From assembly GCF_009857885.1 (NCBI RefSeq), contig NZ_WWER01000004.1, positions 1 to 64,000 on the forward strand: a stretch of DNA of 64,000 nucleotides, read 5' to 3'. How positions within the stretch are numbered: position 1 is the stretch's first letter; every line of letters starts with the position of its first letter. The notes under the pieces were generated by a model. It ran no database searches. It was not told where the DNA came from and saw only the letters and a list, made by a program, of their open reading frames with translations. Positions 7,333 to 56,457 of the stretch are shown in pieces. The DNA comes from Pusillimonas sp. TS35. GTDB taxonomy: Bacteria > Pseudomonadota > Gammaproteobacteria > Burkholderiales > Burkholderiaceae_B. The translations under genes and the position numbers were made by a program.

Positions 7333-8565
7333 ATGAGTGATTTGCAAAGCCTGGCTCGCCGCCGCATGCTGGCTTCCACAGGTGGTCTTGCCGCCTTGGC
7401 GGGCTTGGGTGGGCTGGCGCAGACGGCATCGGCGCAGGGTGCCGCCGCCGCGCCCCCCGCTGCAGCCAGTGGCGCCAAGCCGCTGCCAGATTATGCTGCA
7501 TGGAAGGATGTGGACAGCATGATTGTCCACAGCAACAACACCATCGAACTCAAGCGTTGCGCCTTGGGCTCTGGCGGCATCACACCGCTTGATCGCCTGT
7601 TTGTGCGTAACAACGTATCGCCGCCTTCCGCCGACATCATGAAAGACCCCGATAGCTGGGCGGTGGCCATCGAGGGCGTAGCCAAGCCGCGCAGCTTCAC
7701 TGTGGCCGAACTCAAGACGCTGGGCCTGGCTTCGGTGCCTATTGTGCTGCAGTGCTCGGGCAACGGTCGCGCCTGGTTCCCCAGCAAGCCCAGCGGCACC
7801 AAATGGACGGTCGGCGCGGCTGGCTGCGTGGTATTCAGCGGCGTGCCAGTCAAGGCCGTGCTGGAGGCTGTGGGCGGCATGTCCGACGGCATGGTCTACA
7901 TGACCAGCACAGGGGGCGAGGAAATACCGGCGGGCATCGATCCCAACACGGTGATGGTCGAGCGCTCTGTGCCGCTGTCGGCAATTGAAGATGCCATCCT
8001 GGCCTGGGAGGTCAATGGCGAGCCGATTCCGTTGGCGCATGGCGGCCCTCTGCGCATGATCGTGCCGGGCTATACGGGTGTGAACAACGTCAAATACATC
8101 AAGCGGCTGGCCTTCACCAAAGAGCAGTCGCCGGCCAAGATCCAGCAGACTGGCTACCGCTTTGCCCCGTTGGGCGAGAAGGGCGCCCCGGTGCATAAGT
8201 CTATCTGGGAAATGCCGGTCAAGTCCTGGGTCACGCATCCTTGCGAGGATGGTGAAAAGCTCAAGGCTGGCAAAGTACAGATCCGTGGTGTCGCCATGGG
8301 CGGCATGACGGCGGCCAAGAAAGTGGAGGTGTCCGTCAACGGTGGCAAAGATTGGCAGGAGGCTACCCTGATCGGGCCCGACTTGGGCAAGTACGCTTGG
8401 CGCGAGTTTGTGCTGTCCACCACCTTGAAGCCGGGCACCTATGAAGTGACGAGCCGGGCAGTCAATGAGAAAGGCGATGCACAGCCCGAAGAGCGCCTGG
8501 AGAACAACCGCGGCTATTTGAACAATAGCTGGCGCGACCACATGGTGAAAGTTACGGTCGCCTGA
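7333..8565 (+). CDS. sorA: Sulfite dehydrogenase, molybdopterin subunit (SorA-like)
   Basis: A 410-residue member of the sulfite oxidase family. It is predicted to oxidise sulfite to sulfate in the periplasm and pass electrons to the cytochrome encoded next. A twin-arginine signal is visible (LARRRMLAS at residues 8-16, then a hydrophobic stretch ending near TASAQ), so export with its cofactor by Tat is likely. The molybdenum-binding cysteine is Cys141 in VLQCSGNGR, and a C-terminal dimerisation domain follows. Clear AAGGAG site before the ATG. SoxC of the Sox pathway is a close relative, but no other sox gene is present and the cytochrome partner fits SorAB. Confidence 0.88.
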   Translation: MSDLQSLARRRMLASTGGLAALAGLGGLAQTASAQGAAAAPPAAASGAKPLPDYAAWKDVDSMIVHSNNTIELKRCALGSGGITPLDRLFVRNNVSPPSADIMKDPDSWAVAIEGVAKPRSFTVAELKTLGLASVPIVLQCSGNGRAWFPSKPSGTKWTVGAAGCVVFSGVPVKAVLEAVGGMSDGMVYMTSTGGEEIPAGIDPNTVMVERSVPLSAIEDAILAWEVNGEPIPLAHGGPLRMIVPGYTGVNNVKYIKRLAFTKEQSPAKIQQTGYRFAPLGEKGAPVHKSIWEMPVKSWVTHPCEDGEKLKAGKVQIRGVAMGGMTAAKKVEVSVNGGKDWQEATLIGPDLGKYAWREFVLSTTLKPGTYEVTSRAVNEKGDAQPEERLENNRGYLNNSWRDHMVKVTVA

Positions 8566-8595
8566 CGCGGCCCCAACATTCTGTTTTTACCCTGG

Positions 8596-8632
8596 CGGCG
8601 CCTGGCCCGGCTCGCACCGGAGCCAGGCGCCG
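8596..8632 (+). other. Intercistronic hairpin between sorA and sorB
   Basis: CGGCGCCTGGC (8596-8606) and GCCAGGCGCCG (8622-8632) form a perfect 11-bp stem, followed by a T-rich stretch (GTTGTTTGTTGTTC). It could be a partial terminator, or an mRNA stabiliser that sets the sorA:sorB ratio. Confidence 0.6.
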
Positions 8633-8664
8633 TGTTGTTTGTTGTTCATTAAAAGGAAGTGAAG

Positions 8665-9009
8665 ATGAAATACCCGGTTGCAGCACGAATTGCCGGAGCG
8701 ATGATCCTGATGTGCGCGGCGGGCGCCAGTATGGCGGGCGGCCCCGATGCCGCCAAGCTGGAAAAGGGCAAGGAAGTGTTCCTCAAGCGTGCCACACCTG
8801 CCTGTGCCGTCTGCCATACCCTCCAGGACGCAGGCGCGGCTGGCACCATCGGCCCCAATCTCGACGAGCTCAAGCCCACCTACGATCAGGTTAAGTCCAT
8901 GGTGATCGAAGGGGCGGGTGCCATGCCGGCTTTCGGCCAGATGCTGGACGAGGCCTCCATCGATGCCGTGGCGGCCTACGTGTCGCATATTACGGGCGGC
9001 GGTCAGTAA
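8665..9009 (+). CDS. sorB: Sulfite dehydrogenase cytochrome c subunit (SorB-like)
   Basis: A 114-residue monohaem cytochrome c, the predicted electron acceptor of SorA. It has a Sec signal peptide (about residues 1-24, cleaved near SMA), one haem site CAVCH (Cys47, Cys50, His51) and a likely distal Met ligand in the AMPAFG segment. A GTG six bases upstream is also in frame, but the ATG at 8665 sits at the right distance from AAGGA at 8653. It is separated from sorA by a hairpin and followed by a strong terminator. Confidence 0.88.
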   Translation: MKYPVAARIAGAMILMCAAGASMAGGPDAAKLEKGKEVFLKRATPACAVCHTLQDAGAAGTIGPNLDELKPTYDQVKSMVIEGAGAMPAFGQMLDEASIDAVAAYVSHITGGGQ

Positions 9010-9120
9010 CTCGTTGCCAAGCACCGCTCCGCATAAGCGAAGGCGTGTGCCCGCAAGAATGCTGCCCAGGGCGGCGTTTCGCTCGTACGCCGGGCGACGC
9101 GGGTCACACATGGATATGCA

Positions 9121-9174
9121 AAAAAGCCGCCCGGCTGCCCGCCTTGTACAGGACGGGCAGCCGGGCGGCTTTGT
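9121..9174. terminator. Strong bidirectional terminator between sorB and secF
   Basis: GCCGCCCGGCTGCCCG (9126-9141) pairs perfectly with 9154-9169 to give a 16-bp stem with a 12-nt loop. It is flanked by an A-run on the left and TTTGTTT on the right. It lies between convergent units and can end both. Confidence 0.92.
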
Positions 9175-9189
9175 TTGAACGTCGTGGGA

Positions 9190-10125
9190 TCAGTTGACCT
9201 CGGCGCCGGGGTCTTCCTTCTTGACCGGTTTGACCAGGTCTTCGCGTTTGACGCCCAGCCACATGGCTATGGCGGCGGCCACGAACACCGATGAATAGAT
9301 GCCGAACCAGATGCCGATGGTGAGTGCCAGTGAGAAGTAGTGCAGCGTTGGGCCGCCGAAGAACAGCATGGCCAGCACCATCATTTGCGTAGACCCGTGG
9401 GTGATCACCGTGCGCGAAATGGTTTGTGTAATGGCACTGTTGATGATTTCTTGGACCGATGCTTTGCGTTGCTTGCGGAAGTTTTCGCGGATACGGTCCA
9501 TGATGACGACCGATTCATTGACCGAATACCCTAGCACCGCAAGCACCCCGGCCAGCACCGAGAGTGAAAATTCCCACTGGAAGAAGGCAAAGAAGCCCAG
9601 GATGATGATTACGTCGTGCAGGTTGGCCACCACGCCCGCGACGGCGAATTTCCATTCGAAGCGGAGGCCCAGGTAGACCATGATGCCGATGATCACGCAC
9701 AGCAGCGCCAGCAGACCGTTATGGACGAGCTCCTGGCCCACTTGCGGGCCTACGAATTCAACGCGGCGCAGCTCGACGCCCTTGTCCTGCGCCTGCAGCG
9801 CAGCAAGCACGGCATCGCTTTGGGCTGCGGAGCTTTCGCCCTCGCGCAGCGGCAGCCTGATCATCACGTCTTGCGAGGTGCCGAAGTTCTGTACCTGGAA
9901 ATCGGAGTAACCCAGCCCGCCAATGGCGCCGCGGACTGTGTCGAGCTGCGCGGCCTGCTGATAATGCACTTCCATCACCGTGCCGCCAGTGAACTCGATC
10001 GACAGGTGAAAGCCCCGGGTGACGATGAAAAACACCGCCAGCACGAAAGTGATGAAACTGATGATGTTCAGCACCAGCGCATGGCGCATGAAGGGAATGG
10101 TGCGGTGTATGCGGAAAAATTCCAT
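9190..10125 (-). CDS. secF: Protein translocase subunit SecF
   Basis: SecF forms the SecDF-YajC complex, which uses proton motive force to help SecYEG complete protein export. The product has 311 residues, six predicted membrane helices and a periplasmic loop after the first. The conserved fourth-helix segment SVNESVVIMDRIREN is present. It follows secD after 69 bp and is the last gene of the queA-tgt-yajC-secD-secF run. Confidence 0.96.
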   Translation of the reverse strand: MEFFRIHRTIPFMRHALVLNIISFITFVLAVFFIVTRGFHLSIEFTGGTVMEVHYQQAAQLDTVRGAIGGLGYSDFQVQNFGTSQDVMIRLPLREGESSAAQSDAVLAALQAQDKGVELRRVEFVGPQVGQELVHNGLLALLCVIIGIMVYLGLRFEWKFAVAGVVANLHDVIIILGFFAFFQWEFSLSVLAGVLAVLGYSVNESVVIMDRIRENFRKQRKASVQEIINSAITQTISRTVITHGSTQMMVLAMLFFGGPTLHYFSLALTIGIWFGIYSSVFVAAAIAMWLGVKREDLVKPVKKEDPGAEVN

Positions 10126-10194
10126 GTCTGAATCTTGCCTGTGTGTTGCCTGTTATCGGGAAGCCCTGCGCCGCGCGTGGGCGGCGGGCAGGGG

Positions 10195-12069
10195 TTATTC
10201 CTCGTTGGGTTTCCAGATCTGGCCGATGGAGACCGTGCGCAGCTTGCGCTGGCGGCCATACCAGAGGTTGACCAGTGCCCGCACACCTACGATGGACGAG
10301 AACATGGAGGTGAGGATGCCGATGCAGTGCACGACCGCAAAGCCGCGGATGGGGCCGGTACCAAAAGCCAGTAGCGCCAGCCCGACAATCAGCGTGGTGA
10401 GGTTGGAGTCGAGAATCGTGCCCCAGGCCCGTTCGAAGCCCAGGTGAATGGCCTGCTGCGGCGGCAGCCCCAGGCGCAGCTCTTCGCGGATACGTTCGTT
10501 GATGAGCACGTTGGAGTCGATGGCCATGCCTAGTGTGAGCGCAATGGCCGCAATGCCAGGCAGCGTGAGGGTAGCCTGCAGCATCGACAGCACCGCCAGC
10601 AGCAGGAGCACGTTGAAGGCTAGCCCCAGCGTGGAGAACATGCCGAACAAACGGTAGTACATGATGATGAAGATCGCGATGGCGATAAAGCCATACAGCG
10701 TGGAGTAAAAGCCCTTGGCGATGTTGTCGGCGCCCAGGCTGGGGCCGATGGTGCGCTCTTCGATGATTTCCATGGGCGCGGCCAGCGAGCCGGCGCGCAG
10801 GAGTAGCGCGATGTCGGCGGCGTCCTGCGCCGTCATGCTGCCGGATATCTGCACCTGCCCGCCCGGGATCTCGCTGCGGATGACCGGCGCGGTGACGACC
10901 TGGCCCTTGCCCTGCTCAAACAGAAGGATGGCCATGCGCTTGTTGATATTGTTGCGCGTGACGTCGCGGAAAATACGCGCGCCCTTGTCGTCGAGCGTGA
11001 GGTTGACGGTGGGCTGCTGCGTTTGTTGGTCGCGGCCCGGTTGTGCGTCTTTCAGGTTTTCGCCGGTGAGGATGACCTGGCGGCGCAGAAGCATGGGGCG
11101 ACCGTCAGCGTCGGTATAGCGCTCAAGCCCGAAGGGCACGCGGCCGGCGGCCAGCGCCGCCTGGGCCGACGGCGAATCGTCGACCATGCGGATCTCGAGT
11201 GTGGCCGTGCGGCCCAGGATTTCTTTGGCCTTGGCGACGTCTTGTACGCCAGGCAACTGGACGACGATGCGGTCGGCGCCCTGCTGCTGGATGACAGGCT
11301 CGGCGACGCCAAGCTCGTTGATGCGATTGTGCAGCGTGGTGATGTTTTGCTTGAGTGCGTTGGTTTGCACTTGCGTGACTGCGGTTTCGGTGAGCTTGCC
11401 CGTGAGCATGAACTGGCCGCCGGTTTCGCCCGTGGCGGTGAATACCATTTCGGGCATGGCGCGGGTGAGTTCTGATGCGGCGGCCGAGCGGTCGGCCTCG
11501 CTGTTGAAACCGGAAACGATGGACAGGTTCTCGCGCTCGACACTGGCAGGGTTGATCTTGACGTTGCGCAGGGTATTGCGCACATCGTTGGCCATGGAGT
11601 CGTAGCGGCCGGTGAGGGCGCCCTGCATATCGACCTGCAGCAGGAAGTGCACGCCGCCGCGAAGATCGAGGCCCAGGTACATCGGGTGCGCACCCAGCGC
11701 GGACAGCCAGTTGGGCGAGGCCGGCAACAGGTTAAGCGCCACCGTGTAGGACGGGTCGGCTGGGTTGGTGTTCAGGGCCTTTTCGATAAGGTCCTTGGCC
11801 TTGAGCTGGACGTCTGTGTTTTCGAAGCGTACGCGCACCGTACCGACCGGGCCGTTCATGTCGAACCGGCTGCCGGTGTAGGCGAGGTTATTGCTGCGCA
11901 GGACGTCTTCGACCCGGCTCAAGGTGCCCGCATCGACCTTGACGGTAGACTTGGCGCCAGCGACCTGAACCGCGGGAGATTCACCAAAGAAATTGGGCAG
12001 TGTGTACAGCAGGCCGAGAATAAGGGCCACCAGTACGGTCAGGTATTTCCAGAGGGGATAGCGGTTCAT
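10195..12069 (-). CDS. secD: Protein translocase subunit SecD
   Basis: A 624-residue inner-membrane protein with a large periplasmic P1 region between the first and second helices and five more helices in the C-terminal third. The conserved motif GMAIDSNVLINERIREE contains the acidic residue implicated in proton transport. Length and layout match family members. It lies 58 bp downstream of yajC and 69 bp upstream of secF. Confidence 0.96.
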   Translation of the reverse strand: MNRYPLWKYLTVLVALILGLLYTLPNFFGESPAVQVAGAKSTVKVDAGTLSRVEDVLRSNNLAYTGSRFDMNGPVGTVRVRFENTDVQLKAKDLIEKALNTNPADPSYTVALNLLPASPNWLSALGAHPMYLGLDLRGGVHFLLQVDMQGALTGRYDSMANDVRNTLRNVKINPASVERENLSIVSGFNSEADRSAAASELTRAMPEMVFTATGETGGQFMLTGKLTETAVTQVQTNALKQNITTLHNRINELGVAEPVIQQQGADRIVVQLPGVQDVAKAKEILGRTATLEIRMVDDSPSAQAALAAGRVPFGLERYTDADGRPMLLRRQVILTGENLKDAQPGRDQQTQQPTVNLTLDDKGARIFRDVTRNNINKRMAILLFEQGKGQVVTAPVIRSEIPGGQVQISGSMTAQDAADIALLLRAGSLAAPMEIIEERTIGPSLGADNIAKGFYSTLYGFIAIAIFIIMYYRLFGMFSTLGLAFNVLLLLAVLSMLQATLTLPGIAAIALTLGMAIDSNVLINERIREELRLGLPPQQAIHLGFERAWGTILDSNLTTLIVGLALLAFGTGPIRGFAVVHCIGILTSMFSSIVGVRALVNLWYGRQRKLRTVSIGQIWKPNEE

Positions 12070-12127
12070 GTCGGGGCGGGAGCTGATGCTGAAAAAGGCG
12101 CCGCGAGGCGCCTGGCGAGGCCGGGGA

Positions 12128-12475
12128 TCAGAGCGACTTGATCGTGCCCTTGGGCAGCACGGTGGTGACTGAGGTGCGCTGCACCAGCACTTCGACCGGT
12201 TTTTCGGCCAGGGTGGCCACTTCGATGGTGACGTAGCTGTCGGTCAGCTTGGTGACCTTGCCCAGCATGCCGCCGCCGGTGATGACCTCATCGCCCTTGC
12301 CAAGGCCAGCGACCATGTTGCGGTGCTCTTTCTGGCGTTTCATCTGAGGACGGATCATCAGGAAGTAGAGGATCACGAACATCAGGATGATGGGCAGCAT
12401 GCCCATCAGCGCGTTTTCGCCACCGGCGGGCGCGGCCTGGGCCATGATGAGGGGAAGGGTGTCGGTGACAGCCAT
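12128..12475 (-). CDS. yajC: Preprotein translocase accessory subunit YajC
   Basis: A 115-residue protein with one membrane helix (about residues 27-43, ending in the typical MIRPQ(M)K(R)Q) and a cytoplasmic C-terminal domain. It associates with SecDF. A good CTCCTGGAGG-type ribosome site lies just upstream of the ATG on the minus strand. A 144-bp gap separates it from tgt, so an internal promoter is possible. Confidence 0.95.
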   Translation of the reverse strand: MAVTDTLPLIMAQAAPAGGENALMGMLPIILMFVILYFLMIRPQMKRQKEHRNMVAGLGKGDEVITGGGMLGKVTKLTDSYVTIEVATLAEKPVEVLVQRTSVTTVLPKGTIKSL

Positions 12476-12619
12476 GAATTCTCCTGGAGGATATTTTTGG
12501 TTAACTCTGTATTGTAGCGATATATTGCGTCACGGCCAGCGGGGGCCGCCGGGGCGGCCGGGTTGCCATCTTGCAGCGGTATCTCGCGACATGACTGGCA
12601 TATGCCTGCCGGGGCGCAC

Positions 12620-14802
<2,183 letters not shown>

Positions 14803-15005
14803 TGAAAGTCTTCTCGGGCCGGCGCCGTGGTGGCGCGGCAGGGTGCGGAGTGGTGCGCGGTACAGGCATCAGCCAGGCGCGGCAGCGCCGGCTATCATGG
14901 CCAGGCGGTATTTTAAGCGTTTGCGGCGAAAAATTCCCCACGGCGGGTGCCGCGCACTGGCCAGGATTGTTTATGCTGATGTTTTTTGCGGGTGGGAGAC
15001 GGGAC

Positions 15006-16583
15006 ATGTTTGCATGGTTGGGGCGGTTGGCCAAGGGTCTTAGCGCGGGGTTCGTCCTTCAGGGCCATGCCGGGCGCGGCCATTGCTTCGCCGGCGATGC
15101 TGGCGCGCGAGCTCGATGGCGGCATGTCCAGGCCGAAAGGCCGGGTGTCGTCCCGCCCGGCGGCAGCCGGTTGCGCACGGGCTTGGCGATGGCGCTACTT
15201 GCCTGTACAGTGCCCGCCTCTGCGCTTTCCCAGGCGCTGCCGCCCGAACTGGCCAAACTCTGGGGCGCAACTGGTATGCCCGATAGCGTTCTGTCTGTGC
15301 AGGTGCAGGAAATCGGCGGCCCCGCGCTGGTTTCCGTCAATAGCGACACGCCGCGCAACCCAGCCTCTGTCATGAAAATGGTGACAACCTGGGCGGGGCT
15401 GGCCGGCCTGGGGCCCGACTACACTTGGCGCACGACAGCGTTGGCCGAAGGCAAGGGGCGTATCGATGAGCAGGGCACGCTGGCCGGGCCGCTGTACCTG
15501 AAGGCAGGCGGCGACCCCTACTTTACCGTGCAGGATCTTTGGGCTTTGCTGCGCGAGCTGCGCCTGCGCGGCATCAAGAATCTGACTGAGGTGGTGGTCG
15601 ACCGCTCGGTGTTCGGCGCGGTGGACATTGACCCAGGCGCCTTCGACGGGGCGCCGGAACGGCCCTACAACGCGAGCCCCGACGCCATGATGGTAGGGTT
15701 GGGCGCGATACGCCTGCTGTTTCAACCCGACATGGCCGCCCACAAATGGATCGGCGTGATCGACCCGCCGGTACGCGGTGTGCGTCTGGAAGGCGAGGTG
15801 AAATGGAGCGGCGCGACATGCCCCGGATCGCCTTCGATTTCCACCCAGGTGCTGCCGGTGCAGAACGAGTTCGTCGTGCGCATAGGCGGGACGGCGGCCG
15901 GATCGTGCGGCGAGTTCAGCATCTACCGGCTGGCCCTGCCGCAGGGCGAATACTTTGCGCAGTTGTTCACCATGCTGTGGCGCGAGCTGGGCGGCACCCT
16001 GGCGCGCGGTGTGCGCAGCGGCCGTGTACCCCGCAACGCCACGACGCTCGCTTGGCACGATTCCCAGACCCTGGCCGATACCATCCGCTATATCAACAAG
16101 CACAGTAACAATGTCATGGCGCGTACGCTGCTCCTGACGCTGGGGGCCGAGAAGTCCGGGCCCGGCGCGACGCCCGCCTCGGGTGCGGCAGCCGCGCTTG
16201 GGATACTCGCGCGGCAGGGTGTAGATACGCGTGGTTGGGTGCTGGACAATGGTGCCGGGCTGTCGCGCAACGGCCGGGTGACGGCGGCGGGTATGGCTGG
16301 CATGCTGGACGCTGCCTGGCGTTCGCCCCTGATGCCTGAGTTCATGTCGTCGCTGGCGATTGCCGGGGTGGATGGCACCGTGCGGCGCCGCATGCGCGAT
16401 GACGAGGTCAAGGGCATGGCGCACCTGAAGACTGGCAGCCTGCGCGACACCCGCGCGCTCGCGGGTTATGTGCTGGGGGCAAGCGGCAAGCGATACATAC
16501 TGGTCAGCCTGGTCAACGATGATCGCGCGGCCGCCGTGCGGGCGTTCAACGATGGCTTGGTCGCCTGGCTGGCGGCACGCTGA
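15006..16583 (+). CDS. dacB: D-alanyl-D-alanine carboxypeptidase/endopeptidase (PBP4 type)
   Basis: A low-molecular-mass class C penicillin-binding protein that trims and cleaves peptidoglycan peptides in the periplasm. All three active-site motifs are visible: SxxK in NPASVMKMV, SxN in NKHSNNVMA and KTG in HLKTGSLRD. The start is uncertain. The frame is open back to 14790, into queA. ATG 15006 has a GGAG eight bases upstream but gives an unusually long segment before the apparent signal peptide ([19 protein letters not shown]). A TTG at 15171 or ATG at 15189 would place the signal peptide at the N-terminus. Confidence 0.85.
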
Positions 16584-16674
16584 ATCGCCATGCGTGTCGC
16601 GTCATTGCTTCTACAATAATGGCATTGTCGATTACCGGCTTACCGAACGTCCGGGCCCTCCCCAAGGAAGCATC

Positions 16675-17316
16675 ATGCCTATCCACGAAATCCGCCATCC
16701 CTTGATTCGCCACAAGCTGGGCCTGATGCGCCGGGCGGATCTCAGCACCAAGAATTTCCGCGAAATGTCGCAGGAAATCGCCGCGCTGCTTACGTACGAG
16801 GCCATGAAAGACATGCCACTCGAAACCGTGCGTATCGACGGTTGGGCTGGCCCGCTGGATGTGGAAAAGCTCGCGGGCAAGAAGGTAACAGTGGTGCCCA
16901 TCCTGCGTGCGGGGATCGGCATGCTCGATGGGGTGCTCAGCCTCATCCCGGGGGCCAGGGTTAGCGCCGTGGGCATTGCCCGCAATGAAAAAACCTTGCA
17001 GGCTCATACCTACCTGGAGCGGCTGGCGGGCCAGATGGACCAGCGTGCCGCGCTGATCGTGGACCCGATGCTGGCCACTGGTGGCTCGATGGTAGCCACC
17101 ATCGATCTGCTCAAGCGCGCCGGTTCACGGCATATCCAGGCGCTGGTGCTGGTGGCCGCGCCCGAGGGCATCAGGGCGGTGCAGGAGCGGCATCCCGATG
17201 TCGACATCTACACCGCCTCGATCGACAGCCATCTCAATGAAGACGGTTACATTATTCCCGGCTTGGGTGATGCGGGCGACCGCATTTTCGGTACACGCCA
17301 GAAAGAACCCTGCTGA
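16675..17316 (+). CDS. upp: Uracil phosphoribosyltransferase
   Basis: Pyrimidine salvage enzyme making UMP from uracil and PRPP. The 213-residue product begins [19 protein letters not shown], typical of the family, and contains the PRPP-binding motif [12 protein letters not shown] and a C-terminal uracil-binding region ([12 protein letters not shown]). The frame is open to 16468, but the ATG at 16675 after AAGGAAG is clearly right. It lies 91 bp after the PBP4 gene. Confidence 0.97.
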
Positions 17317-17417
17317 TGCGGCCAGTTAATATTTGCTAACCGATTCGACCAACTGGCGGCAGGCAGGCCTGCTTGGATCGGTTAGTATCTGGGCTGAAGC
17401 AATTTCATTGGACGGCT

Positions 17418-18140
17418 ATGCGTATTATCTGGATTCATCGCATTGTCGCGTGTGCATTGGGGTTGGCCGCCCTGCCTGCCTTTGCGGGGATGTGCCAGAC
17501 ACCATTCATGCATGACGGCGGCAAGGTCAAGCTCAGTGGTTCGGGCCTGCTCGCGCTGGGGGCCGATCTTTCATTTTCCAATGTACGCAAGCAAGGTGGC
17601 GATGTCTGTGAGGCCCGGGTGCAAGGTACGGCCACTTACGGCTTGGCGGGATTGCCGGCGGGGCAGGCCGGGCTCGACTACCTGATGCGCATCAATCGCG
17701 GCGAAGCCCGCTTCGAGCGCGACGACGGCAGCGGCCGAAGGGTGCCGGTGCAAGGCAAGTTCGACCTGCGCGTGCTGGGGCTGTTTTCATATGGCACGCC
17801 TATTACGCAGGCGGGCCAGCGCTTTCCGGCCCAACGTTTCGAGATCAATGTCGACAAAAAGGCGGCTCAGGCCCAGCCCGTTGTCATCCAGACTGGTGAA
17901 CGTACGGTGGGGCAGCGGCAGGATATCAATACAGCCGCAGGAAGCCTTTCGTGCTGGCCGGTGCGCTACACCCGCATCAGTGAGCCAACCCAGGCGTCAT
18001 TCAATGGGCTGATGCTGCCGGTGCCGGGGATGACGGCCAGTGTCACGGACTGGTATTGTCCCGATGTCAGCATGGTCATGCGCCAGGACAGCGTCCAGAA
18101 TGGCGTGACATCCACGGTAGAGGTCACTGAGCTGCGCTAG
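17418..18140 (+). CDS. Secreted protein of unknown function
   Basis: A 240-residue protein I cannot assign to a family. Residues 1-23 look like a Sec signal peptide (IHRIV, hydrophobic core, AFA cleavage site). The mature part has four cysteines (about residue 26, then in DVCEA, LSCWP and WYCPD), which suggests two disulfide bonds in the periplasm. Composition is ordinary for a soluble beta-rich protein and no lipobox is present. The upstream in-frame ATG at 17373 would hide the signal peptide. It stands alone between upp and the DUF883 operon. Confidence 0.75.
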   Translation: MRIIWIHRIVACALGLAALPAFAGMCQTPFMHDGGKVKLSGSGLLALGADLSFSNVRKQGGDVCEARVQGTATYGLAGLPAGQAGLDYLMRINRGEARFERDDGSGRRVPVQGKFDLRVLGLFSYGTPITQAGQRFPAQRFEINVDKKAAQAQPVVIQTGERTVGQRQDINTAAGSLSCWPVRYTRISEPTQASFNGLMLPVPGMTASVTDWYCPDVSMVMRQDSVQNGVTSTVEVTELR

Positions 18141-18201
18141 GCATGCGGGGTGCTGAAGTTTCGTTGTACTGTTTCTAAAACGTCTGATTGGGAGTGAAAT
18201 T

Positions 18202-18519
18202 ATGGCAACACGACAAAGCCTGCGCGAGAGCGAAGAGGATTTCATCGAAAGCCTCAAGGTCAGCCTGGACGAGGCGGAGAAGCTGATGCGCGAAGCCGCC
18301 GAGGCTACCGGCGACAAGGCCACCGAACTGCGTGAAAATGCACTGCGGTCGCTGCGGCGCACCCGAGAAGCCCTGTACGACACCCAGGATGACTTGATGG
18401 CGCGCGGCCGCCAGGCCTGCCGCGCAACCGACGATTACGTCCATGACAATCCCTGGCAGGCCATCGGTTTTGCCGGCTTGGCGGGTGTGCTGCTTGGTGC
18501 GTTGATCTGCCGCCGCTAG
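18202..18519 (+). CDS. DUF883 family membrane-anchored protein (ElaB/YqjD-like)
   Basis: A 105-residue protein with a long charged, probably coiled-coil N-terminal part (about residues 5-75) and one C-terminal membrane helix (GFAGLAGVLLGALI) ending in the short tail CRR. This is the layout of the ElaB/YqjD/YgaM family, some of which bind ribosomes at the membrane in stationary phase. A GGAG ribosome site lies about 10 bases before the ATG. It starts a three-gene unit like yqjD-yqjE-yqjK. Confidence 0.85.
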   Translation: MATRQSLRESEEDFIESLKVSLDEAEKLMREAAEATGDKATELRENALRSLRRTREALYDTQDDLMARGRQACRATDDYVHDNPWQAIGFAGLAGVLLGALICRR

Positions 18520-51695: not shown

Positions 51696-52463
51696 ATGTC
51701 TGACCTGGTCAAAACCGAAATTCGGGAAGGTGTCCTGATTATCACAATCAACCGCCCCGAGGCGCGCAATGCGATCAACTATGACACTGCGCAGCAACTG
51801 GCGGCGGCGTTTGATGCGCTGGATCAGGACGACAGCATTGTCATTGGCGTTCTGACCGGCGCCGAGGGTACTTTCTGTTCGGGCATGGATCTGAAGGCGT
51901 TCGCCAAGACGGGCCAACGCCCGTACGCGGGCGACCGAGGTTTTGCGGGCATTTGTGAGCGCCCGCCCAGCAAGCCCCTGATCGCCGCCATCGAAGGCTA
52001 TGCGCTGGCAGGTGGTTTCGAGATTGCGCTGGCTTGCGACATGCTGGTGGCCGCTACCAACGCAAAATTCGGCCTGCCCGAAGTCAAGCGCGGTATTGTT
52101 CCGGGCTCTGGCGGCATGCTGCGCCTGCCCAGCCGCATGCCCTACCACATCGCGATGGAGGCGGTGCTGACCGGCGAAATGTTCTCCGCCGAACGCGCGC
52201 ATGGCTACGGCCTGGTCAATCGCCTGGTCGAACCCGGTCAGGCGCTGGACGGCGCCCTTGATCTGGCGCGGTTGGTGGCGGCCAACGGCCCGTTGGCTGT
52301 GCGTACCGCCAAGTCCATCGTCACACAGTCGCGCGACTGGCGCCAGGCCGATATGTTCGACCTGCAGCGTCCCCGCATTGCGCATATTTTTACCTCGGCT
52401 GATGCAAAAGAAGGCGCGACCGCCTTTGCCGAGAAGCGCAAAGCTGTGTGGACGGGCAAGTAA
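51696..52463 (+). CDS. Enoyl-CoA hydratase/isomerase (crotonase family)
   Basis: A 255-residue crotonase-fold protein. The oxyanion-hole segments are FCSGMDLKAF and IEGYALAGGFEIALACD. One catalytic-type glutamate is in FGLPEVKRG, but the other position is not clearly the usual Glu, so hydratase versus other crotonase activity is open. ATG 51696 (MSDLVKTE) is chosen; ATG 51690 is in frame. It lies 68 bp before the class I fumarase and may be co-transcribed. Confidence 0.87.
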   Translation: MSDLVKTEIREGVLIITINRPEARNAINYDTAQQLAAAFDALDQDDSIVIGVLTGAEGTFCSGMDLKAFAKTGQRPYAGDRGFAGICERPPSKPLIAAIEGYALAGGFEIALACDMLVAATNAKFGLPEVKRGIVPGSGGMLRLPSRMPYHIAMEAVLTGEMFSAERAHGYGLVNRLVEPGQALDGALDLARLVAANGPLAVRTAKSIVTQSRDWRQADMFDLQRPRIAHIFTSADAKEGATAFAEKRKAVWTGK

Positions 52464-52531
52464 CAGACGTATTTCCACATCGACCCGGCGGGCTGCCTGC
52501 GGCCCGCCATTTTCACGATTGAGCCTGACCT

Positions 52532-54058
52532 ATGACGACCATCATCAAAGAAGATGACCTGATCCAGTCCGTTGCCGACGCGGTGCAGTTCATCAGCTAT
52601 TACCACCCTGCCGATTACATCCAGCACCTGGCGCGCGCCTACGAGCGCGAGCAGAGCCCAGCTGCCAAGGATGCGATCGCGCAGATCCTCACCAACTCGC
52701 GCATGTGCGCCGAAGGCAAGCGTCCCATCTGTCAGGACACCGGCGTGGTGAACGTGTTCCTGAAGATCGGCATGGACGTGCGCATCGACAGTAAGCGCGG
52801 CATGCAGGAATTGTGCGACGAAGGCGTGCGCCGGGGCTACCTAAACCCTGACAACCCGCTACGCGCCTCTATCCTCACTGATCCGCTCTTCACGCGCAAG
52901 AACACGCGCGACAACACGCCCTGTATTGTCTCGGTCGAGCTTGTCGAAGGCGACAAGGTCGACGTGCAGGTGGCTGCCAAGGGCGGCGGCTCCGAGAACA
53001 AATCCAAGTTCGTCATGCTCAACCCCAGCGATTCGCTGGTCGATTGGGTGCTCAAGACGGTGCCGACCATGGGCGCGGGCTGGTGCCCTCCCGGCATGCT
53101 GGGCATAGGCGTGGGCGGCACGGCCGAAAAAGCCATGCTGCTGGCCAAGCAGTCGCTGATGGAAGACATCGATATGTACGAGCTGCTGCAGCGCGGGCCG
53201 CAGAACAAGCTCGAAGAGCTGCGCATCGAGCTCTATGAAAAGGTCAATGCCTTGGGCATCGGCGCCCAGGGGCTGGGCGGCCTGACCACGGTGCTGGATA
53301 TCAAGATCAACACCTTCCCGACCCACGCGGCCTCCAAGCCTGTGGCCATGATCCCCAACTGTGCCGCTACGCGTCACGTGCATTTCGTGCTGGACGGCTC
53401 CGGCCCAGCCGCGCTCACACCGCCCCCGCTGTCCACCTGGCCCGACGTGCATTGGGCGCCCGACTACAACAAGTCGCAGCAGGTCGACCTGAATACGCTT
53501 ACCCCCGAGCAGGTGGCAAGCTGGAAACCCGGCCAGACGTTGCTGCTGTCAGGAAAGATGCTGACGGGCCGCGATGCGGCGCACAAGCGCATCCAGGACA
53601 TGCTGGCCAATGGCGAGAAGCTGCCGGTGGACTTCACCAATCGCGTCATTTACTATGTCGGCCCGGTCGACCCGGTGCGCGAAGAAGTGGTGGGCCCCGC
53701 CGGCCCCACAACGGCCACCCGCATGGACAAGTTCACCGACATGATGCTCGAACAGACTGGCCTGATCGCCATGATCGGCAAGGCCGAGCGCGGCCCGGTT
53801 GCCGTCGAATCTATCCGCAAGCACAAGTCGGCTTACCTGATGGCAGTGGGCGGCTCGGCCTATCTGGTGTCCAAGGCCATTCGCGGCGCCAAGATCGTGG
53901 CTTTCGAAGACCTGGGCATGGAAGCTATCTACGAGTTCGACGTCAAGGACATGCCGGTGACGGTGGCCGTCGATTCGCAAGGCGTGTCGGTCCACGATAC
54001 CGGCCCGCGCGAATGGAAAGCTCGAATCGCCGAGATTCCGTTGGTTCCGGTGGCCTGA
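52532..54058 (+). CDS. Class I fumarate hydratase (iron-sulfur)
   Basis: A 508-residue class I (FumA/FumB-type) hydratase with both N-terminal and C-terminal fumarase domains in one chain. Likely cluster cysteines lie in NSRMCAEGKRPICQDTG and IPNCAATRH. Class I fumarases interconvert fumarate and malate, and several also hydrate mesaconate. The next two genes encode a dehydratase and a CoA-transferase, which makes a role beyond the citric acid cycle worth testing. Confidence 0.93.
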   Translation: MTTIIKEDDLIQSVADAVQFISYYHPADYIQHLARAYEREQSPAAKDAIAQILTNSRMCAEGKRPICQDTGVVNVFLKIGMDVRIDSKRGMQELCDEGVRRGYLNPDNPLRASILTDPLFTRKNTRDNTPCIVSVELVEGDKVDVQVAAKGGGSENKSKFVMLNPSDSLVDWVLKTVPTMGAGWCPPGMLGIGVGGTAEKAMLLAKQSLMEDIDMYELLQRGPQNKLEELRIELYEKVNALGIGAQGLGGLTTVLDIKINTFPTHAASKPVAMIPNCAATRHVHFVLDGSGPAALTPPPLSTWPDVHWAPDYNKSQQVDLNTLTPEQVASWKPGQTLLLSGKMLTGRDAAHKRIQDMLANGEKLPVDFTNRVIYYVGPVDPVREEVVGPAGPTTATRMDKFTDMMLEQTGLIAMIGKAERGPVAVESIRKHKSAYLMAVGGSAYLVSKAIRGAKIVAFEDLGMEAIYEFDVKDMPVTVAVDSQGVSVHDTGPREWKARIAEIPLVPVA

Positions 54059-54110
54059 TCCAGGCAGTAAGCCCCCACAGGGGCTGTCAACGAGTCCGGG
54101 GGCGACCAGG

Positions 54111-54142
54111 CCGGGCAGGCGGGCCCCGCCCGGCCTGCCCGG
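54111..54142 (+). terminator. Terminator-like hairpin after the fumarase gene
   Basis: CCGGGCAGGC (54111-54120) pairs with GCCTGCCCGG (54133-54142). The loop itself can pair GGGC with GCCC, so the structure is a long GC stem. Only TTCT follows, so it is a weak intrinsic terminator on its own; the C-rich tract downstream could support Rho. Confidence 0.55.
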
Positions 54143-54213
54143 TTCTCCGCTTTGGCCCCTCTCCTGGGCCTTTTCAGTTCTTCCTCCCCTTCCGCTTTTC
54201 CCCGTTTCCTTCT
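54143..54213 (+). promoter_or_regulatory. C/T-rich, G-poor tract (possible Rho utilisation site)
   Basis: Most bases in this stretch are C or T on the plus strand, with few G. This is unusual for the window and is the composition expected of a rut site in the RNA. Function is inferred only. Confidence 0.35.
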
Positions 54214-54368
54214 GTCCGCGCGCTGCGCGGTGGGGGCGTCCGTGCCTGCTGTAGGGGGGCGATGTGTGCGTCTCGCGGGCCAAAACCGTCGTTTCTTCGT
54301 TCGCTTTGGCGCCTTGAAACGCCCTGTTGCGCAAAACAAAATTCAAAAACCGGCCGGGAGCAGGCAAA

Positions 54369-54385
54369 GTGTCGGTTATAGACAC
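54369..54385 (+). promoter_or_regulatory. Inverted repeat GTGTC-N7-GACAC before the dehydratase start
   Basis: A 5-bp inverted repeat with a 7-bp centre ends three bases before the ATG at 54389, covering the place of the ribosome-binding site. It may be an operator or a small mRNA hairpin. No canonical Shine-Dalgarno sequence is visible here. Confidence 0.35.
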
Positions 54386-54388
54386 TAC

Positions 54389-55231
54389 ATGGATAATCCG
54401 ATGACGACTCCCAATCTTGATGCCTGGCTGGGACGCAGCGAAGCCTGCGACGACAGCCTCGACCTCAATCACGTCGAGCGGGTAGCGCTGGCGCTGGACG
54501 CCGCAGCCCCGGGCCAGGGCGAAGCACTGCCGCCGCTGTGGCAGTGGTGCTTTTTTATCAAGAGCGTGCCTTATGCCGAAACTGGTGCGGATGGCCACCC
54601 CGCGCGTGGCGGTTTCCTGCCGCCGGCAGACAACCGCAACCGTATGTGGGCGGGCGGCCGGGTGCGTTTTGTAGCGCCACTGCTTGCCGGTGTGCCCGCG
54701 CGCCGCACGTCCACCATCCTGAAGATTCAGGAAAAAGAAGGCCGTACCGGCAAGCTGCTGTTCGTTACCGTTGGCCACCGTTATACGCAGGACGGCAAGC
54801 TGTGCGTGGATGAGGAGCAAGACATCGTGTACCGCGAGCCTAGCCCGCCCAAGCTTCAGGGCACCATCGATGCGCCCGCCAGCCAGTGGTCCAGCGAGAC
54901 TGTGCCGCATTCGCTCATGTTGTTCCGCTATTCCGCGGTCACTTACAACGGCCACCGCATCCATTACGATTACCCCTATGTGACGGAAGTCGAAGGCTAT
55001 CCCGGCCTGGTTGCGCACGGCCCGCTGCTGGCCACCCAGATGTGCCGCGCGTTTGTCGAAGCCAATCCTGGCAAGGCCCCCGCCTTGCTGACATATCGGG
55101 GCTTGCGTCCACTGATTTCACCCAGGCCGTTCAAGGCAGCCGGCCGCATCGATGAGGACGGCAAGGCCAGCCTGTGGGTAGAGCAGGACGGCACCCTGGC
55201 GCATCAGGCAGAATTGGAGTTCAAACAATGA
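54389..55231 (+). CDS. HTD2/FAS1-type double hot-dog acyl-CoA dehydratase (hydratase)
   Basis: A protein of about 280 residues with two hot-dog modules. An N-terminal FAS1-like dehydratase half (PPLWQWCFFIKSV, RMWAGGRVRF) precedes a C-terminal half with the catalytic-type YNGHRIHYDYPYV and GLVAHGPLLATQM. This is the layout of mesaconyl-C4-CoA (3-methylfumaryl-CoA) hydratase and HTD2-type proteins. ATG 54389 or 54401 could be the start; neither has a good ribosome site. It overlaps the CoA-transferase gene by 4 bp, which strongly suggests a shared substrate. Confidence 0.82.
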   Translation: MDNPMTTPNLDAWLGRSEACDDSLDLNHVERVALALDAAAPGQGEALPPLWQWCFFIKSVPYAETGADGHPARGGFLPPADNRNRMWAGGRVRFVAPLLAGVPARRTSTILKIQEKEGRTGKLLFVTVGHRYTQDGKLCVDEEQDIVYREPSPPKLQGTIDAPASQWSSETVPHSLMLFRYSAVTYNGHRIHYDYPYVTEVEGYPGLVAHGPLLATQMCRAFVEANPGKAPALLTYRGLRPLISPRPFKAAGRIDEDGKASLWVEQDGTLAHQAELEFKQ

Positions 55232-56457
55232 CAGACACGCATCACGACGCGCACAGCGGCCACGCTGTGCCAGTAAGGCCCCGTCCCCTGGACGGCATCA
55301 CGGTGATCAGCATGGAGCACGCCATTGCTGCGCCGTTCTGCACGCGCCAGCTGGCCGATCTTGGCGCGCGGGTCATCAAGATCGAGCGCCCCGGCGTGGG
55401 TGATTTCGCGCGCAAGTACGATGAGCGCGTGAAGGGGCTGTCCTCGCATTTTGTGTGGACCAACCGATCCAAAGAAAGCCTGACGCTGGATCTTAAGCGC
55501 CCCGAAGCGCGCGAGGTGCTGGACAAGCTGCTGGGCCACGCCGATGTGCTGGTGCAGAACCTCGCGCCTGGCGCCGCGGCGCGCCTGGGCCTGTCGTACG
55601 AGGCCTTGTCGCCCGACCATCCGCGGCTCATCGTCTGCGATATTTCGGGGTATGGGGATGGCGGTTCGTATCAGGACAAGAAGGCCTACGATCTACTGAT
55701 CCAGAGCGAAGCAGGCTTTCTGTCCGTCACGGGCACGCCGGAAAGCCCGGCGAAAGCGGGCTGCTCGATTTCTGACATTGCCGCCGGCATGTACGCCTAC
55801 AGCAGCATTTTGTCGGCCCTGCTGCTGCGCGAGCGCACCGGCCATGGCAGCCGGCTCGATGTGTCCATGCTTGAAAGCATGGTCGAGTGGATGGGCTTCC
55901 CGATGTACTACGCGTTTGACGGCGCGCCTCCGCCGCCGCGTGCCGGCGCCTTCCATGCCACGATCTACCCCTACGGTCCGTTTCCGGTGGGCGACGGTAC
56001 CGAGGTTATGCTAGGCCTGCAGAACGAGCGTGAATGGGCAGCATTCTGCAAGACTGTGTTGGGCCAGCCCGAATTGGCGCAGGATGAACGTTTCAATTCC
56101 AATTCAAAGCGGGTCGCCAACAAAGAGGCGCTGCGGGTGCTGATCGTGACCGAGTTTGCGTCGCTCACGCGCCAGAAGGTGATCAGCTTGCTTGAAGAGG
56201 CCGCCATTGCCAACGCAGGCGTGAATACCATGGCCGATGTCTGGCACCACCCCCAGCTTGCCGAGCGCAATCGCTGGCGCCAGGTGGGTACCGAGAAGGG
56301 TGCCATCCCCGCCTTGATACCGCCGGCAAGCAGCAGCGCGTTTCAGGCCCGCATGGATGCCATTCCTGCGCTGGGCCAGCAGTCGCGCGGTATTCTGGCC
56401 GAGCTGGGCTATTCCGCTGCCCAGGTCGAGGATTACGCGAAGCAGGGGATTATCTGA
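55228..56457 (+). CDS. CaiB/BaiF family CoA-transferase (family III)
   Basis: A 409-residue class III CoA-transferase. The N-terminal Rossmann half has LADLGARVIKIERPGVGDFAR, and the catalytic aspartate fits KKAYDLLIQSEAGF. Members move CoA between carboxylic acids such as succinate, mesaconate, citramalate or carnitine. The start within the stop of the dehydratase gene implies coupling. The substrate is probably the acid whose CoA ester that dehydratase handles (inference). Confidence 0.9.
   Translation: MTDTHHDAHSGHAVPVRPRPLDGITVISMEHAIAAPFCTRQLADLGARVIKIERPGVGDFARKYDERVKGLSSHFVWTNRSKESLTLDLKRPEAREVLDKLLGHADVLVQNLAPGAAARLGLSYEALSPDHPRLIVCDISGYGDGGSYQDKKAYDLLIQSEAGFLSVTGTPESPAKAGCSISDIAAGMYAYSSILSALLLRERTGHGSRLDVSMLESMVEWMGFPMYYAFDGAPPPPRAGAFHATIYPYGPFPVGDGTEVMLGLQNEREWAAFCKTVLGQPELAQDERFNSNSKRVANKEALRVLIVTEFASLTRQKVISLLEEAAIANAGVNTMADVWHHPQLAERNRWRQVGTEKGAIPALIPPASSSAFQARMDAIPALGQQSRGILAELGYSAAQVEDYAKQGII

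Follow-up and report, generated by a model that had tools for sequence, protein, structure and literature searches.

A putative itaconate ich-ict gene pair without its citramalyl-CoA lyase gene in Pusillimonas sp. TS35

The window analysed here, a stretch of 64,000 nucleotides from contig NZ_WWER01000004.1 of Pusillimonas sp. TS35, carries at 54389-56457 two overlapping genes, one for a double hot-dog hydratase and one for a CaiB-type coenzyme A (CoA)-transferase, which are read here as the ich-ict pair (itaconyl-CoA hydratase and itaconate CoA-transferase) of the itaconate degradation cluster known from Pseudomonas aeruginosa, the citramalyl-CoA lyase gene ccl having been lost and the pathway presumably ending with an unlinked lyase or in citramalate (probability about 0.72). 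The enzymes are ordinary and the pathway is known; the arrangement is reduced, which makes this a modest variant. An earlier note on this DNA had proposed a mesaconate/citramalate module of a class I fumarase, the hydratase and the transferase, with a crotonase alongside. This idea was near the truth, but the module was overextended: hydratase and transferase stand as a C5-dicarboxylate pair by homology, whereas the fumarase and crotonase are not tied to them by gene order, and itaconate is a better name for the main substrate than mesaconate or citramalate, being favoured by the homology of the hydratase to the solved chain 8khg and by the match of the transferase.

Homology of the hydratase and the transferase

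The double hot-dog protein scores only 25.8 bits against PF13452 (cut-off 22). Its matches to solved chains span 268 residues, with 344.4 bits (E 4e-102, 57% identity) to 8khg, described as 'Itaconyl-CoA hydratase', and 344.8 bits (E 3e-102) to 8huc, which is named only 'MaoC_dehydrat_N domain-containing protein', and by this homology the protein is taken as a putative Ich. The stretch N..HRIHYD is kept, one variable residue aside, in all nine rows of the alignment; its conservation is what is observed, and a catalytic role of the N..H stretch is presumed. NCBIfam offered no name for the Ich of the window, nor for that of Pseudomonas. The layout of a mesaconyl-C4-CoA hydratase, which the earlier note had seen in this protein, agrees with the description of Ich as also having that activity (PMC12290011). 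The second hot-dog match of the genome, C11:44239, was rejected as another Ich, having 27 bits and lying in a locus (G000:C11:34300-54200) where two short MaoC-like proteins were recognised by eye. These adjacent proteins of 174 and 154 residues, encoded at 9351-11453 of that locus and followed by an acyl-CoA dehydrogenase gene, look by eye like a relative of Ich whose fold is divided over two chains, the 154-residue protein having an HTD2-like NTHRIHYD stretch.

For the CaiB protein, the margin of the best match over the next matters because the genome holds 36 CoA_transf_3 matches, 35 of them above the cut-off. Queried with the transferase of the P. alcaliphila cluster, the genome returned 35 matches, with the window protein first at 629.5 bits and 72% identity and the runner-up at 330.3 bits and 45%. 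With this first rank and margin in a query from a five-gene Pseudomonas itaconate cluster, the protein is named by homology as the likely Ict. The region of its family III aspartate, which we take to be catalytic, aligns with solved transferases, the conservation alone being observed. Two other names were rejected, succinyl-CoA:mesaconate CoA-transferase (NF041294, 197 against a cut-off of 700) and 2-methylfumaryl-CoA isomerase (TIGR04253, 54 against 725); the Pseudomonas Ict scores alike on both models, at 196 and 52. The Ict of P. aeruginosa is described as accepting citramalate and methylsuccinate too (PMC12290011).

A scan of named genomes with the Ich alignment gave at least 574 relatives, the best 80 of which were kept and their loci read. 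Gene names follow position and homology, with the P. alcaliphila locus as reference, and for LysR, Bug and dehydrogenase genes were given by eye. Homologs of ich, mcd (an acyl-CoA dehydrogenase), msi (an MmgE/PrpD protein), ict and ccl (a CitE homolog) lie together in 53 of these best 80 loci, and 50 of the 53 also have a LysR-like gene; several of the remaining loci are truncated by contig ends. This layout is that of the itaconate/methylsuccinate cluster described in PMC12290011. With the P. aeruginosa-type cluster (ich-mcd-msi-ict-ccl, PA0878-PA0883), the window shares a homologous Ich and, directly beside it, a family III Ict. It differs in that the pair is adjoined by none of ccl, mcd, msi and a LysR-like gene, so that the mcd and msi genes that mark the five-gene methylsuccinate version are missing from the cluster. 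Another counterpart is the ich-ict-ccl set that other members of the family carry between a fumarase gene and folK, with the same site, order and orientation as in the window, differing by ccl, which is absent from the window species and from two congeners (G002, G003). In both the Ict and the Ich tree, the window pair falls among ccl-bearing members of the family. Yersinia ripABC, compared with the window pair by description only, is published as carrying out the same three reactions by convergence, with enzymes that are non-homologous or distant (PMC12290011). A cluster like that of P. aeruginosa is described in Bordetella (PMC7397319, PMC13307414); a search of the literature on the cluster in Bordetella, Achromobacter and Alcaligenaceae, and on clusters lacking Ccl, showed among the papers listed none on the pair of the window.

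Absence and probable loss of the lyase gene

The 64-kb window holds no citramalyl-CoA lyase gene, as the earlier note had stated, and whole-genome searches with a Ccl alignment and with the Pseudomonas Ccl found no ccl ortholog elsewhere in the assembly. The alignment reached 187 and 134 bits at best in this genome; against 61 genomes of relatives, its top 20 matches had at least 359 bits, and 19 of the 20 adjoin an Ich gene. The Pseudomonas Ccl found 115 and 64 bits only. Ccl and Ich are the two enzymes named as specific to the pathway (PMC12290011). The NCBIfam model RipC_Ccl was unusable as a test, giving 166 against a cut-off of 375 even for the Pseudomonas Ccl. A gap in the assembly is unlikely because genome completeness is 99.98% and the site lies inside a contig of 407 kb. 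The two weak matches in this genome, C22:105590 and C20:265591, were rejected as Ccl orthologs; both stay candidates for the reaction. The C20 protein, also of CitE type (8508-9470 of G000:C20:257000-276000), adjoins a chloride-channel-like gene, recognised by eye, and has matches of 79% in G003 and of 62% in G035, an Ich genome without Ccl. The exception among the top 20 matches, in G032 (C9:56000-75000), is a ccl that follows glyQ and a crotonase gene at a locus where fumarase, ich and ict were undetected, perhaps a lone ccl left by the reverse loss.

In relatives, ccl sits at the corresponding place. Among 27 family loci read (the window and L044-L069), fumarase, ich, ict and ccl are consecutive in eight (L046, L047, L048, L050, L051, L053, L055, L058), with folK next in seven of them and the eighth stopping at the contig side, and in 15 of the 27 no more than 152 bases separate ccl from ict. 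In a sample of 151 family genomes, with presence defined as E 1e-90 or better, Ich was present in 97 and Ccl in 84; 78 had both, 19 Ich only, 6 Ccl only and 48 neither (Fisher p 4e-17). The earlier note's expectation that its genes co-occur in relatives is thus borne out for ich and ccl and partly fails for the fumarase and crotonase. The starts of ich and ccl are no more than 3 kb apart in 68 of the 78 genomes with both (68 of the 97 with Ich). The sample is not one of independent genomes, since two genera supply 12 of the 19 with Ich only, and the counts as lacking include three genomes with weaker Ich and seven with weaker Ccl matches; one of the genomes counted as Ccl-less (G013) has a Ccl-like gene of 267 bits elsewhere.

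Within the genus, G001 and G004 keep ccl, and the window species, G002 and G003 are without it. In the Ich tree these three make up a single clade (98/89), whose sister group is the ccl-bearing G001 and G004, so that a single loss in their lineage is the simplest account and probably took place; a backbone tree of seven neighbouring genes groups them too (0.81). Over all rows of the trees, starred branches force at least three changes in the state of ccl, and the trees as drawn need six (Ict) or seven (Ich). Both genes of the pair are open in the trio, and ratios of nonsynonymous to synonymous substitution (dN/dS) of 0.11-0.12 for ich and 0.06-0.09 for ict, set beside 0.07-0.24 and 0.05-0.10 in three ccl-bearing pairs (lowest for G001 and G004), indicate that ich and ict stayed constrained after the loss. 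Several points weigh against this account. The cut-off of the family survey was set after the lists had been seen; the Ict tree pairs the window with G002 (100/96), G003 having no resolved place and not standing with the window; in the backbone tree, the fumarase is the one gene shared by the stretches used for G002 and G003; and dS exceeds 1 in all ccl-less pairs, near saturation, making dN/dS rough.

Possible fates of citramalyl-CoA

By homology, Ict would move CoA from succinyl-CoA, or from citramalyl-CoA once the cycle runs, to itaconate, and Ich would isomerise and hydrate itaconyl-CoA to (S)-citramalyl-CoA. Most likely, though tentatively, an unlinked CitE-type lyase would split this product into pyruvate and acetyl-CoA, the protein at C22:105.6 kb being the candidate; failing a lyase, Ict could hand the CoA of citramalyl-CoA to the next itaconate and release free (S)-citramalate as the product. 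The C22 gene lies in a locus (C22:103-107 kb) with genes for a CaiB protein, a Bug-type receptor and a LysR regulator, the last two named by eye. Its type occurs in 50 of the 97 Ich genomes and in one of the 54 others. Among the Ich genomes, 14 of the 19 without Ccl have it, compared with 36 of the 78 with Ccl (p 0.04); within the genus, it is found in all three Ccl-less genomes and in neither of the two with Ccl. Among genomes below 3.5 Mb, seven of the 11 Ccl-less Ich genomes have it, compared with one of the 27 that have Ccl.

As a replacement lyase, the C22 protein is a lead only, and much of the same survey tells against it. One genome (G027, 5e-51) was left out of the comparison, and the 3.5 Mb split point chosen, after the lists had been seen; in genomes of at least 3.5 Mb the difference is not significant (7 of 8 against 35 of 51, p 0.42). 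Few lineages account for the excess among Ccl-less genomes, six of the seven small-genome cases belonging to one genus (g26), and in another (g32) two of six genomes have the C22 type and four have neither it nor Ccl at the cut-offs used. Within the genus, G002 and G003 match the C22 protein of the window genome at only 46% and 49% identity, lower than G031 and G021 (69% and 67%), so that simple inheritance of one gene does not explain them. The C22 protein has only 40% identity to the Pseudomonas Ccl (115 bits), and in C. necator a Ccl homolog linked to a CaiB gene, in a comparable locus, was judged in PMC12290011 not to serve itaconate use. The association with Ich may also reflect genome size, for which the counts are not controlled. 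That the non-orthologous CaiB-CitE locus took over the last step after the loss of ccl, splitting the breakdown over two distant loci, is thus a doubtful possibility, its odds lowered by the low identity within the genus.

Detoxification alone, with Ict and Ich turning itaconate into (S)-citramalate independently of succinyl-CoA and the citramalate being excreted or dehydrated by the fumarase to mesaconate, is on the unlikely side as well. It draws on the exchange of CoA from citramalyl-CoA to itaconate in a succinyl-CoA-independent cycle, described for Ict and Ich of P. aeruginosa (PMC12290011), on the retention of ich and ict without ccl in several lineages, under constraint in the genus of the window, and on the four g32 genomes that have neither lyase type; the presence of the C22 type in most Ccl-less Ich genomes counts against it, as a lyase may be available. 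A move of the pair to another acyl-CoA substrate after the loss of ccl is improbable. Such a shift was suspected by the authors of PMC12290011 for a second Ich homolog of C. necator, and two acyl-CoA dehydrogenase genes, named by eye, stand beside ich-ict in four Ccl-less loci (L057, L059, L160, L163), but no such dehydrogenases adjoin the window pair, whose conserved stretches are unchanged and which groups with ccl-bearing congeners. The dehydrogenase pair of those four loci lies directly upstream of ich-ict, and its homologs lie upstream of the full ich-ict-ccl set in Achromobacter loci and in two Bordetella loci (L143, L148).

Neighbouring genes and significance

The gene positions, the 4 bp overlap and the crotonase ahead of the fumarase, as given in the earlier note, were confirmed by coordinates and Pfam, all four genes lying on the plus strand (Table 1). 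The crotonase protein as supplied began at 51699, one codon short, and for ich the ATG at 54401 is a likelier start than 54389 because aligned homologs begin about there. The overlap of ich and ict is the ATGA at 55228-55231. A spacing of about 330 bases between fumarase and ich, in which a terminator-like site (54154) precedes a promoter-like one (54314), weakly suggests that ich and ict form a transcription unit of their own; promoter-like sites in the region number two against 0.9 expected. The stops of ict and folK are 84 bases apart. At the G002 locus (L044), about 8 kb (about 10200-18490 of that locus) separate ich and fumarase, a stretch that by eye holds genes for a GntR/aminotransferase-type regulator, a flavodoxin-fold reductase, a Bug receptor, an IclR-type regulator and a P450-like protein.

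Table 1. Features of the region from the crotonase gene to the site of ccl
Feature	Positions	Strand	Evidence
Crotonase/enoyl-CoA hydratase family (PRK08252 subfamily)	51696-52463	+	PF00378, 193.5 bits; 404 bits against cut-off 282
Class I fumarase	52532-54058	+	PF05681, 323.8 bits; PF05683, 283.7 bits
Terminator-like stem-loop between fumarase and ich	54154-54170	+	Consensus match only
Promoter-like site upstream of ich	54314-54342	+	Consensus match only; weak
ich, itaconyl-CoA hydratase by homology (double hot-dog, MaoC/HTD2 type)	54389-55231	+	Solved-chain matches
ict, itaconate CoA-transferase by homology (family III, CaiB type)	55228-56457	+	PF02515, 358.9 bits
Gap of 84 bases at the site of ccl in relatives	56458-56541		Gene order, including congeners G001 and G004

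The fumarase has both class I domains at full length and shows 69-70% identity to the one class I match that each of three Pseudomonas genomes holds; its own genome also holds fumC and a second class I fumarase at 58%. In E. coli, Burkholderia and P. putida, enzymes of this class are described as hydrating mesaconate, as the earlier note had said, yielding (S)-citramalate (PMC4682846, PMC9875883), and deletion of PP_0897 abolished growth on mesaconate in engineered P. putida (PMC9875883). The likeness of the window enzyme to such mesaconases (B. xenovorans Bxe_A3136, P. putida PP_0897) runs through the Pseudomonas class I matches, not through these two proteins, and by analogy it may have a side activity as a mesaconase, feeding mesaconate in as citramalate. 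According to PMC9875883, use of mesaconate and citramalate depends on Ict and Ccl, and that of mesaconate not on Ich, so that this side entrance would lead nowhere without a lyase. A single mesaconate/citramalate unit of fumarase, hydratase, transferase and crotonase is quite improbable, even with mesaconate-hydrating fumarases, an Ict that takes citramalate, and a distance of at most 520 bases between the fumarase gene and ich at 14 of the 27 family loci. Eight Ich-less family genomes have a fumarase match, and in all five that were read the fumarase gene adjoins folK (gaps of 34 to 657 bases in four and 1780 in one); in other relatives the ich-ict pair lies between the two. A fumarase match was found in 54 of the 61 relatives (51 at 64% identity or more) against Ich in 32. 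The crotonase was rejected as a member of the module, lying within 45 bases of the fumarase in three of the five Ich-less relatives read; in the other two it was undetected under a 55% identity filter. Because the fumarase adjoins folK without ich in these relatives, the gene arrangement gives no reason to count fumarase and crotonase with the pair, and they are older neighbours by descent and mostly bystanders.

Itaconate is an antimicrobial acid produced by fungi and activated macrophages (PMC12290011). Calling itaconate degraders from ich alone would mislabel about one fifth of the family's Ich genomes, 19 of the 97 being without a Ccl ortholog at the cut-off. The question worth asking concerns the fate of the lyase. 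If the C22 locus did take over, (S)-citramalate or its CoA ester would link two distant loci. In an ich-ict pair kept without ccl, detoxification stands apart from nutritional use, which points either to a two-step detoxification or to a replaced lyase.

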